Source: Thiotrichales bacterium | Lineage (GTDB): Bacteria > Pseudomonadota > Gammaproteobacteria > Beggiatoales > Beggiatoaceae | Length of the DNA: 64,000 nt | Assembly: GCA_016745035.1 (NCBI GenBank) | Contig: JADGDE010000001.1 | Span: forward strand, 1,030,507-1,094,506 | Direction of reading: 5' to 3' | Shown: positions 4,124 through 40,885 of the stretch, in pieces | Numbering within the stretch: the stretch's first letter is position 1 | Layout: each line of letters opens with the position of its first letter | Program-made: the position numbers and the translations under genes | The notes under the pieces: generated by a model | What the model saw: only the letters and a program-made list of their open reading frames with translations | The model's database searches: none | What the model was told of the DNA's origin: nothing

Positions 4124-4642
4124 ATGTTATGGCTTTTGCCCTTGTTGTTTGGTGTTGAGGTGATGGCTAAAGAAGACTTTAGCTTGTTTGATAAAGATAG
4201 GGGGAAAGTACAGGAAAAGCCTGTACCGCCACCACCGCCGCCACCTCCCCCTCCACCACCTCCTCCTAGAGATGAAGACAAACCAGCTGGGAAGTTAAAA
4301 CCCCAAAAAGATTTTTCCCTGCAAGGCTTAAGTTATTTGGGTGGCGCTTATCGAGTTATTTTACAAATGCCCAATGGTAAACAACGCGCTTTTGAATGGC
4401 AGCCACAACAAAAACGCCCGATACCGGGATTTCCGCGTCATAAACTGATTGCAGTGGATGTAGAGCAACGTGAAATACAAATCGCTTATCCCAAAAATGC
4501 CCCTTGTCGCCAAGACAATGCCAGTAAAGGACTCAGTTGTTTGTCAAAAGAAGTGGCTAGCGTTAATTTGATTCATGGCGCAAGCACTGTTGCCAGCAGT
4601 CCTAAACCTACGCGCTCACGACCTAACCCCAAAACTCATTAA
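4124..4642 (+). CDS. Secreted polyproline-linker protein, first of a tandem paralogous pair
   Basis: I recognise no named family. The 172-residue product starts at the ATG at 4124 with a short signal peptide (MLWLLPLLFGVEVMA). It continues FSLFDKDRGK, then 14 consecutive prolines (residues 35-48, mixed codons), then a C-terminal domain with FSLQGLSYLGGAYRVIL, KRPIPGFPRHKL and two cysteines (CRQDNASKGLSC). The same layout and motifs recur in the next gene, so the two are tandem duplicates with different linkers. The frame stays open back to 3956, but those 56 codons run through copy B of the family-1 repeat and are probably not native. A periplasmic location is inferred. Confidence 0.7.
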   Translation: MLWLLPLLFGVEVMAKEDFSLFDKDRGKVQEKPVPPPPPPPPPPPPPPRDEDKPAGKLKPQKDFSLQGLSYLGGAYRVILQMPNGKQRAFEWQPQQKRPIPGFPRHKLIAVDVEQREIQIAYPKNAPCRQDNASKGLSCLSKEVASVNLIHGASTVASSPKPTRSRPNPKTH

Positions 4643-19554: not shown

Positions 19555-20685
19555 ATGAATCATCCGATAGCCAAACAAACACAGACTGAGCAATGGACAG
19601 TTTTGATAAGCATGGTGATGCTTGCTTATCTGATTGGCTTTACACAAAACAGTGTTGCTGCTGATGATGCCATTGAATTACTCGAATACAGCCCCCTTGA
19701 TAAAAATGCCATCCCTCGAAGGCGCGAAGCAGGCTTGGTCGATGACAGCATTTTAAGCGGGGGACAATCTCGCGGGCTTTCACGCGGTTTGTCCCGGGGT
19801 CTATCTCGTGGACTCTCACGCGGTTTATCCCGTGGCTTATCTCGCGGACTCTCGCGCGGTTTATCTAGGGGTCTGTCGCGTGGACTCTCACGCGGCTTAT
19901 CCAGAGGGCTATCTCGTGGACTCTCACGCGGTTTATCCCGTGGCTTATCTCGCGGGCTTTCACGCGGTTTATCCCGAGGTTTATCTCGTGGACTCTCTCG
20001 CGGCCTATCACGTGGTTTATCCCGCGGCCTATCTCGCGGACTTTCGCGTGGTTTATCCCGTGGTTTGTCTCGCGGACTTTCACGTGGTGCCACAGTTGAT
20101 GCCGCAAAAACTGATGAAGGTGGGCATGGCGATGAAGATTTGATTGCTTTACCCGAATTGATTGCGCCTTTTGCGCCACCACATACGGGTTTGACCAGCC
20201 AAGCAGCACCCCGTTTGTATTTTTATATTTCTAGCGACTGGCCCGTTGAATTAAATTTCACCTTAAACAAACCCCATGCGCCAGAACCCATCATCGCTTT
20301 AGAAATTCCCGCACCTGAAGGCGGATTCAAAAAAGGTTTTCACGCTATTGACCTTGCTCAACACGGTGTGGCATTAGAGCCGGGTATTGAGTACGAATGG
20401 TTTGTATTTATCTCGCCAGACTTAGAAGAGCGCACCGCTGACTTGATTGCCAGCAGTACCTTAAAACGTATTGTCATGCCAAAGACTTTAGCACAAGCTT
20501 TAGCACAACAAGCACAAAGCCGCCATTATGCCCTGTATGCTCAAGCTGGTTTTTGGTTTGATGCTGTCGATAATCTGCATCAAAGTTTGGCTGCTAATCC
20601 CACACTTTTACGCCAGTATCGCGCAGCTTTAGCCACGCAGGCAAAAATGCCTAAAGTTGCTCTATTTGACGTGCCGAGTTCTTAA
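19555..20685 (+). CDS. Secreted DUF928-type protein with 27 tandem SRGL-type tetrapeptides
   Basis: The 376-residue product has a signal peptide (VLISMVMLAYLIGFTQNSVA-AD). From 19768 to 20091 it encodes 27 consecutive units: 26 Ser-Arg-Gly-Leu and a last Ser-Arg-Gly-Ala. The 12-base units differ at many synonymous positions (Ser TCT/TCC/TCA/TCG, Arg CGC/CGT/CGG/CGA/AGG/AGA), yet the peptide is exact. The rest (RLYFYISSDWPVELNFTLNK, EPGIEYEWFVFISPDL) resembles DUF928, a beta-rich domain common in cyanobacteria and Beggiatoa-like bacteria, often near sensory cyclases or CHASE2 proteins. It is followed by an adaptor-like gene and a receptor cyclase. Its function is unknown; the periplasm is the likely location. 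Confidence 0.8.
   Translation: MNHPIAKQTQTEQWTVLISMVMLAYLIGFTQNSVAADDAIELLEYSPLDKNAIPRRREAGLVDDSILSGGQSRGLSRGLSRGLSRGLSRGLSRGLSRGLSRGLSRGLSRGLSRGLSRGLSRGLSRGLSRGLSRGLSRGLSRGLSRGLSRGLSRGLSRGLSRGLSRGLSRGLSRGLSRGATVDAAKTDEGGHGDEDLIALPELIAPFAPPHTGLTSQAAPRLYFYISSDWPVELNFTLNKPHAPEPIIALEIPAPEGGFKKGFHAIDLAQHGVALEPGIEYEWFVFISPDLEERTADLIASSTLKRIVMPKTLAQALAQQAQSRHYALYAQAGFWFDAVDNLHQSLAANPTLLRQYRAALATQAKMPKVALFDVPSS
19768..20091 (+). repeat. 27 x 12-bp in-frame coding repeat (SRGL)
   Basis: The tandem array of 27 units of exactly 12 bp lies inside the DUF928 gene. The period never slips, and third-position changes are frequent while amino acids are constant, apart from Ala in the last unit. Confidence 0.97.
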
Positions 20686-20699
20686 CCGCATTTATGTGA

Positions 20700-20784
20700 T
20701 TGATGTGGCGCAAAGGCTAAATACAACTAAGCAGTTGAAAAATCACTCTATTGTGACAAAAACTGGCTTAGTGCGTCGTATCTG
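20700..20784. mobile_element. Family-1 MITE-like element, decayed copy H
   Basis: The sequence TGATGTGGCGCAAAGGCTAA at the left and GGCTTAGTGCG-TCGTATCTG at the right matches the family-1 ends with several changes. The interior CTAAGCAGTTGAAAAATCAC and TTGTGACAAAAAC matches copies F and G. No target duplication is visible. It overlaps the 5' end of the adaptor-like gene. Confidence 0.65.
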
Positions 20785-21514
20785 TTATTTAAGCTTATGC
20801 TTACTTTATGGTCACAGCGTTTTTGCTGATGAGTTCTTATTCACACGCAGCTATGTAGCGCATTTGTCACCGGAACGTCAGTTAAGAATTTATAGCCCTG
20901 TCGAGGGCTATGCCCGAAAATTTCCTTGGCATTTAGGTGATAAAGTTGAGCAAGGTGAGTTGTTGTTTCAGCTTGAAAATAATTATCGCCAACTGGATTT
21001 GCGTAAAGCCAAAATACAACTGCAACAACAACGTTACCAATATCGACAAACCCAGAAGTTGCAAGCTCAACAGGCTATCAGTGACGCACAAAAACAAACC
21101 GATGCCACCGCGTTAGCCTTGGCCAAGCTAGAATTAGAAACCTTGCGCCAACAAGAACAAGACAGCATGGTCTCTGCGCCTATCAGCGGTATTATCAGTT
21201 GGCAGCAAATGGAAGAGGGTGATTGGCTAACAGCACATCAACATGTCTTAAGCGTGTTTAGCCTTGATGAATTGCGTTTAGTCGCACATATTGATGCTAG
21301 ATTGCTTAGACAATTACAATACGGACAAGTGGTTAAGATTCAAGCGCTAGAAAATGCGCCCCGGGCTTGGGTTCAACGGGTTTATCCTGAAATTAACCCT
21401 AAAACCCAGCAAGGACAAGTTGCCATCAAGCTCGAATTTATACCCAAAAACTGGTACAGCGGTCAAGCAATTACGGTACAATTTGGCAGCACGTTTATTG
21501 CAGAACAAAACTGA
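20771..21514 (+). CDS. Orphan membrane-fusion-type periplasmic adaptor (HlyD/RND family)
   Basis: From the GTG at 20771 the 247-residue product has a signal peptide (MRRICYLSLCLLYGHSVFA-DE), a lipoyl half-motif (RIYSPVEGYARKFPWHLGDK, VEQGELLFQLEN), a helical hairpin (about residues 75-125) and the second lipoyl half (VSAPISGIISWQQMEEGDWL). A short beta-barrel follows (LRLVAHIDARLLRQLQYG). This is the order of RND/ABC efflux adaptors. No pump or outer-membrane channel gene is nearby. The frame is open back to 20657, but that part overlaps the previous gene and repeat copy H, so GTG 20771, inside the repeat's right end, is the most sensible start; GTG 20752 is an alternative. Confidence 0.75.
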   Translation: MRRICYLSLCLLYGHSVFADEFLFTRSYVAHLSPERQLRIYSPVEGYARKFPWHLGDKVEQGELLFQLENNYRQLDLRKAKIQLQQQRYQYRQTQKLQAQQAISDAQKQTDATALALAKLELETLRQQEQDSMVSAPISGIISWQQMEEGDWLTAHQHVLSVFSLDELRLVAHIDARLLRQLQYGQVVKIQALENAPRAWVQRVYPEINPKTQQGQVAIKLEFIPKNWYSGQAITVQFGSTFIAEQN

Positions 21515-21595
21515 CGTTTGTCACTTGTTTAAGTGGAATCTGTCTATAGTCAAGCTAAACCCGATATTATCTCTAATGTGTCTAAGGCCAATCAA

Positions 21596-24500
21596 ATGAC
21601 TGCCACCTCTTCTAAGTCACAAATAAAAACAAAAGCCTTTGCTGGTCGGCGTTCTTTGCGCACCATTTTAATCATCCCTTTTGTGATTCAAATGATTGCT
21701 ATCGTTGCTCTCATTGGTTGGTTATCGTTTGAAAATGGCAAACAAGCCGTGAATGATTTAGCCAGTAAATTGCGTAGCGAAGTTACCTCACGTATCGCTC
21801 AGCATAGCCAAGAGTATTTTCGTACCCCACAACTATTTCAAAAAATTAATAAAAAGTTGATCGAAAGTGGTGAACTGGATTTGGATAATATTGCCCAATT
21901 ACAACAACATTTTTGGCAACAAATTCAAGTTGATCAGGCGATTGATTATTTATTTTATGGCGATGCTCAAGGGCGTTTTATTGGTGTACAAAATTTAGAA
22001 CAACATACAGTGGCAAAAATTCGTGATTTGGACACCGATGGCAAGCGGCATATTTATCGTTTGGACGATCAAGGGCAACAAATAGAATGGCAAAAAGAAA
22101 AAACCAAAGCCTATGATCCGCGTCAACGCCCTTGGTACCAAAGCGCAGTAATGGCTGGCAAAGCGACCTGGTCGCCTGTGTACCCCTCAGCGCACCTCAA
22201 TGTCTTACAAGTCACGCCTGTACAGCCAATTTACCACTATAAAAATAATGAAAAAGTCCTACAAGGGGTATTAGCGATTAATTTACGCCTTAGTGAAATT
22301 AATCAATTTTTAGCTGAACTCGATATTAGTCAGCGTGGTGAGGCCTTTATTATCGAGCGTAACGGCGACTTAATTGCCAGCTCAACCAAAGAACAACCCA
22401 GTCGTACCAATTACGATCCGAAAACAGGTAAAGATAAACGCCAACGTCTCAATGCCCAAGGTAGTCAAGAACCTTTGATTCGACAAACAGCAATGTATTT
22501 ACAGCAATATTTTTCTGACTATAAACATATCCAAACCCGCGAACAGCTTCGCTATGAATATCAAGGCGAAGATCAGCTAATCGAAGTCATGCCCATCAAT
22601 AATGAGCAGGGTTTAGACTGGTTAATTGTGGTAGTGATTCCTGAAAATGATGTGATGGCTAGAATCAATGACAATACCCGCACAACGATTTTGCTCTGCA
22701 TTGTCGCGTTGATAGTGGCTTTACTGGTAGGTGTGCTCACTGCCCGCTGGTTAATTAATCCGATTAAAGAATTGGAGCAAGCTGCCGAACGTTTATCGCT
22801 GGGTAATTGGGCTGAAAATGTTCCAGCTAAGCGTCAAGATGAATTGGGCAGTTTGGCACTGTCCTTCAATCGTATGGCAGCCGCTTTGCGAGATTCATTT
22901 AAAAATCTTGAAAAGAAAAATGCCGATTTAGAGGAAATGGATAAGCTCAAAAATGAGTTTTTAGCCAATACCTCTCATGAATTACGCACCCCACTCAATG
23001 GCATTATTGGTATTGCCGACTCTTTAATCGATGGTGCAACCGGAGAATTGCCCGAGGAAACTGCATATAATCTACAAATGATCATTGCCAGCGGCACACG
23101 CTTGACCAACTTGGTTAATGATATTCTCGATTTTTCCCAATTACGCCACAAAGCGATTCAACTACAACTCAAACCCGTAGCACTGAAAGAAATGGCTGAG
23201 GTGGTTTTAACTTTTAGTAAGCCTTTATTAGATAACAAGCCGATTGAATTGATTAATCAAGTCAATGCTGATTTACCGGCCGTATTAGCGGATGAAAATC
23301 GACTCCAGCAAATTCTGCATAATTTAGTCGGCAATGCCATCAAATTTACCGCCAAAGGGCAAATTCACATCAAGGCTGAGCGGAAAAAAGAAGGGGTTTT
23401 AATTCAAGTCAGTGATACCGGTATTGGTATTGCTAAAGAAAAACAAAACCGTATTTTTGAATCCTTCAAACAAGCTGATGGTTCGACAGCACGCGAATAT
23501 GGTGGCACAGGCTTGGGCTTAAGTATTAGTCGACAACTGATTGAATTACACAAAGGTTATATTGGCATTGAATCTGACCTTGGGAAGGGCAGTGTCTTTA
23601 GTTTTTGGCTGCCGGCGGCAAAACAAGCCGCAGAAACTTTAGCAGAACCATTGGTTAGCAAACCCCACGCGAATGATATTGATGCATTAAAAAATGCACC
23701 AAAAAAACGCAAAGCCACCAGCGTCTCTTTAGATATTACCGCCCAAGAATTAAATGAATTGCGCCAATCTGGACGTTTTACCATTTTGATTGTTGATGAT
23801 GAACCCGTAAACCTGCAAGTATTAAGCAATCACTTGGCAAATAAAAATTATATTCTCGCCGAGGCAAGCAATGGCGTTGATGCCTGGGGGGCGATTAGCA
23901 ACGGCTTTCGCCCTGATTTAATCCTACTCGATGTGATGATGCCGAAAATGACTGGCTATGAAGTTTGTCGGCGGGTGCGCGAATTATACATGCCAAATGA
24001 AATGCCGATTTTATTGCTGACAGCGAAAAACCAAGTCACGGATTTGGTTGAAGGCTTAGAGTCGGGCGCTAATGATTATTTGACCAAACCAATTTCTAAA
24101 AGTGAATTGCTCACCCGTATTAAAGTCCATATCCAGCTTTATAATATTAACCAAGCCTATGGGCGTTTTGTCCCCCATGAGTTCTTGCAACTCTTGAGTA
24201 AAAACAGTGTTTTGGATGTGGAATTGGGCGATCATGTCGAACAAGAAATGACGGTATTATTTACCGATATTCGTGGCTTTACCAGCCTGTCAGAAAAAAT
24301 GACTCCGAAAGACAATTTCCGTTTTATCAATGGCTATTTGAGCCGCATGGAGCCGATGATCAGCACTTATCACGGCTTTATTGATAAATATATTGGCGAT
24401 GCCATCATGGCGCTGTTCCCTACTTCAGCTGATGATGCGGTTCAAGGCGCAATTGCCATGCTCAACACCTTGTCTGATTATAATGAAGGGCGTAAGCGCG

Positions 24501-24982
24501 CGAAGTATGAACCCATCGCCATTGGTATTGGTCTAAACACAGGTCCATTGATGTTGGGTACAGTCGGCGGGCAAAACCGCATGGATGGTACAGTGATTGC
24601 TGATGCGGTCAATCTTGCCTCCCGCGTTGAAGGGCTAACCAAAGTCTATGGCGCAGCACTCTTAATTACCGAGCAAACCTATCTCAGACTACAAGATCGC
24701 AGCCATTATCTGATTCGGATTATTGACCGCGTGAAGGTTAAAGGAAAATCGCAGCCCGTGACGATTTACGAAGTCTTTGATGCTGACACGGCTGAGCAAA
24801 GCCAGCTTAAACAACAGACCTTACAATATTTCGAGCAAGGGGTCGCACATTTTCACCGTGAAGAAATTGGCACAGCACGGGATTATTTTGAGCAGGTTTT
24901 GGCACAAAACCCCGCTGACCTAGCTGCGAAAGTATATTTGGAACGCTGTCAAAAAAATAAAATTCAACGGGTGTTAGTTTAA
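21596..24982 (+). CDS. Hybrid sensor: Cache-HAMP-histidine kinase-receiver-class III adenylate/guanylate cyclase
   Basis: The 1128-residue fusion has a membrane helix near residue 30, a periplasmic Cache-type sensor (DPRQRPWYQSAVMAGKATWS), a second helix near residue 370 and HAMP. HisKA follows with NTSHELRTPLN (phospho-His 461), then HATPase (VGNAIKFTAKG, DTGIGI, GGTGLGLSIS), a receiver (ILIVDDEP, LLDVMMP with Asp 779, TKP), and a class III cyclase. The cyclase has the two metal Asp residues, VLFTDIRGFT (Asp 891) and KYIGDAIMALF (Asp 935). A short TPR-like tail ends the protein. One polypeptide could convert an external signal to phosphorylation and then cyclic nucleotide. The start is ATG 21596; a GTG at 21533 is an alternative. 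It lies downstream of the DUF928 and adaptor genes. Whether ATP or GTP is used cannot be settled here. Confidence 0.92.
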   Translation: MTATSSKSQIKTKAFAGRRSLRTILIIPFVIQMIAIVALIGWLSFENGKQAVNDLASKLRSEVTSRIAQHSQEYFRTPQLFQKINKKLIESGELDLDNIAQLQQHFWQQIQVDQAIDYLFYGDAQGRFIGVQNLEQHTVAKIRDLDTDGKRHIYRLDDQGQQIEWQKEKTKAYDPRQRPWYQSAVMAGKATWSPVYPSAHLNVLQVTPVQPIYHYKNNEKVLQGVLAINLRLSEINQFLAELDISQRGEAFIIERNGDLIASSTKEQPSRTNYDPKTGKDKRQRLNAQGSQEPLIRQTAMYLQQYFSDYKHIQTREQLRYEYQGEDQLIEVMPINNEQGLDWLIVVVIPENDVMARINDNTRTTILLCIVALIVALLVGVLTARWLINPIKELEQAAERLSLGNWAENVPAKRQDELGSLALSFNRMAAALRDSFKNLEKKNADLEEMDKLKNEFLANTSHELRTPLNGIIGIADSLIDGATGELPEETAYNLQMIIASGTRLTNLVNDILDFSQLRHKAIQLQLKPVALKEMAEVVLTFSKPLLDNKPIELINQVNADLPAVLADENRLQQILHNLVGNAIKFTAKGQIHIKAERKKEGVLIQVSDTGIGIAKEKQNRIFESFKQADGSTAREYGGTGLGLSISRQLIELHKGYIGIESDLGKGSVFSFWLPAAKQAAETLAEPLVSKPHANDIDALKNAPKKRKATSVSLDITAQELNELRQSGRFTILIVDDEPVNLQVLSNHLANKNYILAEASNGVDAWGAISNGFRPDLILLDVMMPKMTGYEVCRRVRELYMPNEMPILLLTAKNQVTDLVEGLESGANDYLTKPISKSELLTRIKVHIQLYNINQAYGRFVPHEFLQLLSKNSVLDVELGDHVEQEMTVLFTDIRGFTSLSEKMTPKDNFRFINGYLSRMEPMISTYHGFIDKYIGDAIMALFPTSADDAVQGAIAMLNTLSDYNEGRKRAKYEPIAIGIGLNTGPLMLGTVGGQNRMDGTVIADAVNLASRVEGLTKVYGAALLITEQTYLRLQDRSHYLIRIIDRVKVKGKSQPVTIYEVFDADTAEQSQLKQQTLQYFEQGVAHFHREEIGTARDYFEQVLAQNPADLAAKVYLERCQKNKIQRVLV

Positions 24983-39265: not shown

Positions 39266-40327
39266 GTGTATAAACTCTTATTTGCTTCTCTTAGCCTTTT
39301 AAGCCTTCCCTTTGCTCCACTTAAAGCCGATGTTGCTAATGCCGAGAAATTACAAGCAGATGTCGCGCAACTTTTAGACACACATCGTTGCAATCAATGT
39401 TTTTTGAAAACAGCCAATTTTTATCGCGCGCATTTAGTCACTGCACAATTAGAACAAGCCAATTTATTAGGGGCAAATTTAATTCGTAGCAATATCAAAG
39501 GCGGCAATTTAAAAGGGGCAAACTTAGAGAGGGCGCGTTTAGAAGAAGCTTATCTCAAAGGCGTTAATTTAGAAGGAGCGAATTTATCCCGAGCTAATTT
39601 AAAAGGCGCAAACCTCAAAGGTGCAAACCTTAAAAATGCGATTTTAAAAGGCGCATTATTAGAAGGGGCAAATCTTAAAGGTGCAAATTTGCGCGGCGCA
39701 TCCTTGGAGCGGGCTGATTTTAGCGGTGCAAATTTAGAAGGCGCGGATCTTTTTGGTGCTAATCTTCGCGTTATTAAACTCACCCAAGCCAATTTAGAAC
39801 GGGCTAATTTACTTGAAGTTTCACTTGAAAGTGCCGATTTGGTCAATGCCAACCTAAGAGGCGCACAATTAGAAAATGTGAATTTTACCCGTGCTAACCT
39901 TAAAGGGGCTTCACTCGAAGGCGCTAACATCGCTGGCGGTAATTTTGAACTGGCCGATTTGCAAGGTGTGAATATGGACAATGCCATTTTAGAATTAGAC
40001 CCCGGTTCAAAACAAAATACGGGGATTGGCGCACCACTACAATGGATTAATTTAGAAAAAGCGAACTTATTCCGTGCCGATCTAGCTCAAGTGAATTTAA
40101 CTGGGGCCAATTTAAGCCAGAGTAATTTGATAGAAGCCAACTTAAAAGAAGCCAATCTTAATCATGTCATCCTTAACGGTGCTAAATTACAATGGGCAAC
40201 ATTGCAAGGAACGAATCTCGCTGGGGCAAAATTAGCCAATGCACAACTAGAAGGCACAGTTTTAGAAGATAGCAATATCGACGAAGCTGATTTACAAGGG
40301 GTTGATTTAGCGAAAGCTGTACGCTAA
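39266..40327 (+). CDS. Secreted pentapeptide-repeat protein with CxxC motif (larger)
   Basis: The 353-residue product starts with GTG and a signal peptide (MYKLLFASLSLLSLPFAPLK, cleavage near KA-D). A short helix (VAQLLDTHRCNQCFLKTANF) holds a Cys-x-x-Cys. About 300 residues of A(N/D)LxG pentapeptides follow (such as LKGANLKGANLKNAILKGAL), forming a right-handed quadrilateral beta-helix. Near residue 245 the helix is interrupted by DPGSKQNTGIGAPLQW. Most pentapeptide proteins are cytoplasmic; here the signal sequence puts the helix in the periplasm. A smaller relative follows 12 bp later. The role is unknown. Confidence 0.85.
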   Translation: MYKLLFASLSLLSLPFAPLKADVANAEKLQADVAQLLDTHRCNQCFLKTANFYRAHLVTAQLEQANLLGANLIRSNIKGGNLKGANLERARLEEAYLKGVNLEGANLSRANLKGANLKGANLKNAILKGALLEGANLKGANLRGASLERADFSGANLEGADLFGANLRVIKLTQANLERANLLEVSLESADLVNANLRGAQLENVNFTRANLKGASLEGANIAGGNFELADLQGVNMDNAILELDPGSKQNTGIGAPLQWINLEKANLFRADLAQVNLTGANLSQSNLIEANLKEANLNHVILNGAKLQWATLQGTNLAGAKLANAQLEGTVLEDSNIDEADLQGVDLAKAVR

Positions 40328-40339
40328 AGGGAGAAGAAA

Positions 40340-40885
40340 ATGAATTATCCACATATTTTGGTACTTGGTTTAAGCTTAAGTTTTAGTTCAATCTCATTGA
40401 GTGCGGGCGAATTAGAAAACAATATTGAACAATTGTTACAGAATAATGATTGCCATGCGTGTCAATTAAATGGCGCGAATTTATATCGAGCTAATTTAAA
40501 AGGCGCAGGTATGCAAAAAGCAAGTTTGCGCGGGGCAAATTTAGAGCGCTGTAATATGGAGCGCATTAACCTGTCATCTGCACAGCTACAAGGGGCAAAT
40601 TTAGAAAGTTCGATGCTGATGGGATCCAACTTAGAGGGCGCAGATCTTTCTGGGGCAAACTTAGAAGGTTCGGATTTACAGCGCGTGATTTTAGTCAATG
40701 CTAACTTAGCCTACGCTAATTTGGAAAATGCCAATCTCAAAGGGATTAATTTAGAAGGGGCTAATTTAACGGGGGCTAATTTGCAAAATGCTGATCTGGC
40801 AGGAGCTAATCTTGAAGGTGCTGTGTTGAAAAATGTTAATTTGCGCGGTGCTAATTTAGAGCGAGCAGTACTCGCTAAACCTTGA
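40340..40885 (+). CDS. Secreted pentapeptide-repeat protein with CxxC motif (smaller)
   Basis: The 181-residue product has a signal peptide (ILVLGLSLSFSSISLSAGEL), then NIEQLLQNNDCHACQLNGAN, the same LLxxxxCxxCxLxxAN layout as the upstream gene. Pentapeptide repeats (LQGANLESSMLMGSNLEGAD) continue to the C-terminus. AAGGGAGAAG gives a strong ribosome-binding site. It is a paralog of the 39266 gene and probably co-transcribed; both may be exported and joined through the Cys pairs, which is inference. Confidence 0.85.
   Translation: MNYPHILVLGLSLSFSSISLSAGELENNIEQLLQNNDCHACQLNGANLYRANLKGAGMQKASLRGANLERCNMERINLSSAQLQGANLESSMLMGSNLEGADLSGANLEGSDLQRVILVNANLAYANLENANLKGINLEGANLTGANLQNADLAGANLEGAVLKNVNLRGANLERAVLAKP

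Follow-up and report, generated by a model that had tools for sequence, protein, structure and literature searches.

A 27-unit Ser-Arg-Gly-Leu array under purifying selection in a probably exported DUF928 protein of the Beggiatoaceae

MtxA of Magnetospirillum is a periplasmic protein with a signal peptide; its gene precedes a CHASE2-adenylate-cyclase gene, and its deletion produced no visible phenotype (PMC4439547). The work cited in PMC5587647 includes a CHASE2-DUF928 neighbourhood in Nostoc and the acid-stress response of a DUF928 protein. Here we describe a DUF928 gene in a 64,000-nucleotide stretch of DNA from a Thiotrichales bacterium (contig JADGDE010000001.1), the whole of which is called the window. 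An uninterrupted ORF of 376 aa at 19555-20685 on the plus strand, on which all features of this locus lie, encodes both a tetrapeptide array and a DUF928 (PF06051) domain. The domain occupies residues 204-369 (20164-20661), and the match of 81.5 bits passed the curated Pfam cut-off of 26. The frame of the gene is open, and the gene belongs to a conserved family. A probable signal peptide (residues 1-36, 19555-19662), cleaved near SVA/A, was recognized by inspection as a hydrophobic stretch followed by an AxA-like site; the AlphaFold2 model placed a helix at residues 5-30, and the array-bearing relatives likewise have N-termini that look signal-like by inspection. The product is probably an exported member of DUF928, and its sequence suggests a location in the periplasm or at the cell surface. 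The motif RRREAGLVDD (19717-19746) lies immediately 5' of the array and is conserved in an alignment of 23 array-bearing proteins, among which R56, R57, and E58 are invariant. The array itself (19768-20091) is followed by a linker with several acidic residues (20092-20151) and then by the DUF928 core. Matches of the protein to FliH, ExsE, and rhoptry neck protein 2 were low-complexity and compositional, and they were dropped.

The core was modeled with AlphaFold2 at pLDDT >90 and is predicted to form an Ig-like sandwich and, after it, TPR-like helices. In the same model (23 sequences), pLDDT was below 50 over almost the whole array, a value consistent with disorder although not decisive for it, as AlphaFold2 is weak on such repeats. 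The same result, a confident core with a low-pLDDT array, was obtained for a relative with four units. On the basis of these models, the array is predicted to be a disordered, flexible arm. The best solved-structure match of both models was the C-terminal domain of MtxA (4Z29; Z 9.4 and 9.9, 152 residues, rmsd 4.2-4.3), and the next matches had Z ≤6.2. MtxA was absent from the results of profile searches against PDB sequences, and the likeness is therefore a fold match and not proven kinship.

The array lies exactly where it was first described, with 27 units at residues 72-179 comprising 26 SRGL and a terminal SRGA. All four TCN serine codons, six arginine codons, four glycine codons, and six leucine codons are used, and 20 of the 27 units are distinct as DNA. 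The six nonsynonymous positions carry the identical base in all 26 SRGL units, the two variable first codon positions yield only Arg and Leu synonyms, and at third positions 69% of unit pairs differ across the array. The first-pass annotation had described the codons as differing freely between units. Wide synonymous variation was indeed found, but no AGY serine codon occurs anywhere in the array, and the codons are not wholly free because the DNA has higher-order periods of 36 bp (three units) and 108 bp. Units three apart are 80% identical compared with 65% for neighbours, and units 13-15 are an exact DNA copy of units 4-6. The identity of neighbouring units (0.65) was close to that expected (0.64) from random synonymous draws using the codon usage of the window. 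When mutation from the consensus was simulated to equal DNA diversity, a mean of 31 amino acid changes accumulated (minimum 22, 300 runs), whereas none is observed in the 26 SRGL units, where only synonymous sites vary. The earlier proposal of purifying selection is thus upheld, and these results support purifying selection acting on the array peptide.

Arrays of the family show the same contrast between codon positions, with a median difference of 0.57 at third positions versus 0.02 at second positions (28 arrays). Silent second-position differences arise in four arrays (L066, L070, L081, and L014) because TCN and AGY serine codons are mixed; no single silent step connects these two codon sets. 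The sister-clade array of L009 also uses both serine codon families, and its 22 units, all 22 distinct as DNA, encode SRGL, SRGV, one SRGG, and nothing else. A pattern much like that of the window, in which silent sites are saturated and the other sites unchanged, was found in L009, L014, L017, and L057. The window array keeps its peptide over scrambled DNA, and the relatives have distinct yet equally uniform Arg-Gly arrays at the same site, which argues that the peptide is selected and not the DNA. Selection alone does not account for all of the uniformity; blocks of 24, 36, and 108 bp duplicated in tandem contribute as well. Most related arrays have a DNA period of 24 or 36 bp with block copies ∼80 to 96% identical, and units within one block differ by a third to a half. 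The arrays of L059, L062, L071, and L075, with nearly uniform DNA, look recent. The simplest history is that an old, short array saturates silently under peptide selection and that two- or three-unit blocks then duplicate. A test for 36-bp block ancestry common to genera gave a weak global result (P 0.004, with rows that are not independent), and the window array did not belong to the common block group in that test. Neighbouring units differed more than random codon draws would in 4 of 26 arrays (uncorrected P 0.001-0.034), a hint that selection may favour DNA differences between neighbours.

Of 36 genomes in the family of the window, which are sulfur-oxidising relatives of Beggiatoa, Thioploca, and Thiomargarita, at least 19 have an array at the same DUF928 site, and deltaproteobacterial MAGs likewise bear one there. 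A contig scan of named genomes, in which an alignment served as query (a single-protein query gave no match), recovered 25 loci from Beggiatoa, Thiomargarita, Thioploca, Ca. Venteria, Halobeggiatoa, Parabeggiatoa, and deltaproteobacterial MAGs. An SRG-type pattern searched in 369 genomes of the class had, apart from its match in this genome, two matches, both to unrelated simple repeats; no comparable array was seen outside the family, and the phages, plasmids, and viral contigs searched held no close relatives of the DUF928 core. Unit types include SRGV, SRGL, SRGI, ARGV, TRGI, TRGV, VRGG, RGV, RGGFDT, ARGLTRGF, and 14- and 19-residue repeats. The unit is nearly uniform inside each array and differs from lineage to lineage, with R-G retained while the rest is replaced. 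Arrays range from 4 to 33 units across the family, and therefore no set number of units is needed. A core-domain tree requires a minimum of 16 changes among the unit labels. RGV and RGGFDT each make up a single clade. SRGL is found both in the clade of the window and among deltaproteobacteria, which implies more than one origin or regain. In the nearest relatives, L009 and L017, SRGL units come first and SRGV units after them, and the best core identity to the window protein is 57% (L009). The four-residue period to which the first-pass annotation had drawn attention does not hold across relatives, in which units of 3, 6, 14, and 19 residues occupy the same site, and the period is therefore not the conserved feature. 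What selection keeps is therefore a uniform Arg-Gly-hydrophobic arm, with SRGL itself varying between lineages.

The site of the array can be read from plain members of DUF928. Plain paralogues, two of which are adjacent in this genome, read GAPxRRVGGGTRG or near, and their single TRG aligns at the array position of array-bearing members. The DUF928 profile starts at GGGTRG; the match of the window protein entered at profile position 19-20 and those of the plain paralogues at 2-3. This N-terminal start is not intact in the window protein, where the array stands at the TRG, and membership rests on the curated score. The first-pass annotation had pointed to a Gly-Ser-Arg-Gly motif of DUF928 proteins; the alignment of TRG with the array and the late profile entry essentially bear it out, and it was therefore a good lead. 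In the open literature searched, one paper mentions DUF928 and none contains the repeat strings. The arm-bearing DUF928 protein belongs to a known family, as a variant not described before.

Other repeats were noted in the same material. DUF928 proteins of L075, L076, and L077 have an RGGFDT hexapeptide arm, with 19 full units in L075. Long membrane tetrapeptide arrays of the GVAV/GLAG type with variable DNA occur in this and related genomes (L053, L033/L044, L034, L048, L049, and L055), mostly in proteins with an ATPase-like region. GLAV/GVAV membrane stretches, and EKGLEQG in PD-(D/E)xK-like proteins, were considered and set aside as unrelated proteins similar in periodicity alone. Elsewhere in the window, several imperfect 15-bp tandem repeats of the AAAGGTGCAAATCTT type (39489-40782) look like a pentapeptide-repeat protein, and a 12-bp proline-type repeat, CCGCCACCACCC, lies at 4226-4266.

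Two genes follow the array gene in the window. The first (20657-21514; Pfam, NCBIfam) encodes an HlyD/RND-type periplasmic adaptor, overlaps the 3' end of the DUF928 gene, and is a possible operon partner. The second (21533-24982; Pfam) combines a dCache sensor, histidine kinase, receiver, and class III nucleotide cyclase and is a possible signaling partner. No CHASE2-adenylate cyclase gene is adjacent in the window; the class III cyclase, two genes downstream, is part of the dCache histidine kinase. Among the neighbouring genes examined there was no adjacent two-partner-secretion (TPS) exoprotein or TpsB gene. TPS genes adjoin the array gene in L057, L058, L060, L062, and L072 and lie nearby in L075 and L078, the latter with a TpsB-type transporter neighbour, and CHAT proteins are neighbours in L070, L074, L076, L077, and L078; at several of these loci the TPS or CHAT label rests on clustering with a Pfam-scanned member. 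SoxYZ is a neighbour in L063, and the same gene clusters recur in L064 and L068. An acidic exoprotein family is the neighbour in L058, L060, and L062, and the plain DUF928 genes of this genome precede a TPS gene. The net charge is +27 for the array and −13 for the remainder of the protein, compared with −26 to −97 for the neighbouring TPS exoproteins and −37 for the acidic family, a match that is weak because many exported proteins are acidic.

Some of these neighbours have features of their own. The acidic family looks secreted, lies directly 3' of the array gene (L058 7564-10380, L060 7515-10514, and L062 7498-10476), had no Pfam match over the cut-off in the two members scanned (L058 and L060), and in these two begins with proline- and acid-rich or TQPPTTGTPTGG repeats. 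Array-bearing DUF928 is followed in the two nearest relatives (L099 7785-9989 and L100 9433-11679) by a membrane protein that matches VWA weakly, a successor that differs from the adaptor and kinase of the window. On contig C22 of this genome (L098), a pair of plain DUF928 genes, a gene for a TPS exoprotein, and one for a 1644-aa BNR/Sortilin-like protein are consecutive, a row resembling the cassette around array-bearing DUF928 genes of relatives.

The reading that we favour, with confidence a little short of even, is an exported MtxA-like DUF928 protein with its TRG amplified into a flexible, cationic, multivalent arm that holds an anionic partner. Amplification of the single conserved N-terminal TRG would have given a long, strongly cationic Arg-Gly-hydrophobic arm, and tandem duplication of two- or three-unit blocks drives the turnover that leaves each lineage with its own nearly uniform unit. 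The arm may act by multivalency, through many weak Arg-Gly contacts whose copy number sets avidity or reach. Possible partners are exoproteins, whether of the TPS type or otherwise acidic, and envelope polymers; the partner would be kept near the DUF928 core and the neighbouring sensor or secretion system. The most likely function would be to bind such an anionic partner in the envelope or among the exoproteins; a general role for the array as a polyanion binder is a guess. A disordered multivalent cationic arm fits because R-G is constant, the hydrophobic residue is changeable, and copy number is variable. We consider unlikely a further reading, in which an exported bacterial Arg-Gly polyelectrolyte arm forms condensates with the acidic secreted proteins or the envelope polymers of large sulfur bacteria, duplication of two- or three-unit blocks resets the unit in each lineage, and codon scrambling within the block keeps the array from collapsing.

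Were the array an entropic spacer in which length and solubility count and Arg-Gly chemistry does not, its predicted disorder and wide range of lengths (4-33 units) would be accounted for. A spacer would tolerate residue changes, but 26 units with saturated synonymous sites show none, and R-G is retained even where the rest of the unit changes; this explanation is improbable to us. Slightly less probable is the regular rod or fibre of four-residue period that the first-pass annotation had put forward. It draws on the strict peptide periodicity and on some helix assigned inside the array by the model, but a rigid rod is unsupported because the array is predicted to be disordered (a prediction that is not decisive on such repeats), and the periods of 3, 6, 14, and 19 residues at the same site also argue against it. 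Recent neutral expansion of a 12- or 36-bp DNA repeat, with no function at the peptide level, is very improbable. The 36- and 108-bp repeats are real and the nearly uniform DNA in L059, L062, L071, and L075 is what recent expansion would give, but in the window synonymous sites are saturated with all other sites unchanged, which contradicts it, and much the same pattern holds in L009, L014, L017, and L057. We give least credence to selection on the DNA itself or on a 155-aa frame that is open on the minus strand (19626-20093). The synonymous scrambling contradicts it, as the codons for Ser, Arg, Gly, and Leu vary; relatives have different codons and different units there, and such repeats often leave the opposite frame open by composition.

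The favoured reading, a multivalent Arg-Gly arm on a DUF928 core, can be set against described systems. The locus offers a clear example from nature of selection on a very simple repeat peptide that is readable straight from DNA. About thirty related arrays are available for comparison, and in several of them the unit has given way entirely to another. DUF928, a family without a function, gains a likely fold relative in MtxA and a common gene setting of sensor cyclases, two-partner secretion, and CHAT proteins. RG/RGG-rich disordered regions are typically intracellular, irregular, and nucleic-acid binding. The window arm resembles them in repeated Arg-Gly, predicted disorder, and a predicted multivalent and cationic character, but it is probably exported, its periodicity is strict, and every unit contains a hydrophobic residue. 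Plain DUF928 proteins have the same core as the window protein, together with a probable signal peptide and the GAPxRR motif, and, like array-bearing relatives, adjoin TPS genes, as in the genome of the window; they have one TRG where the window protein has RRREAGLVDD and 27 SRGL-type units. Engineered codon-scrambled repetitive genes, such as those in PMC10094428, also encode identical peptide repeats with different codons, whereas the window array is natural and its scrambling comes from mutation and the duplication of already scrambled 24- or 36-bp blocks. MtxA (PDB 4Z29) has the same Ig-like and TPR module, a signal peptide (probable in the window protein), and a gene adjacent to an adenylate-cyclase sensor gene, but its N-terminal region is different, and no array is reported for it (PMC4439547).
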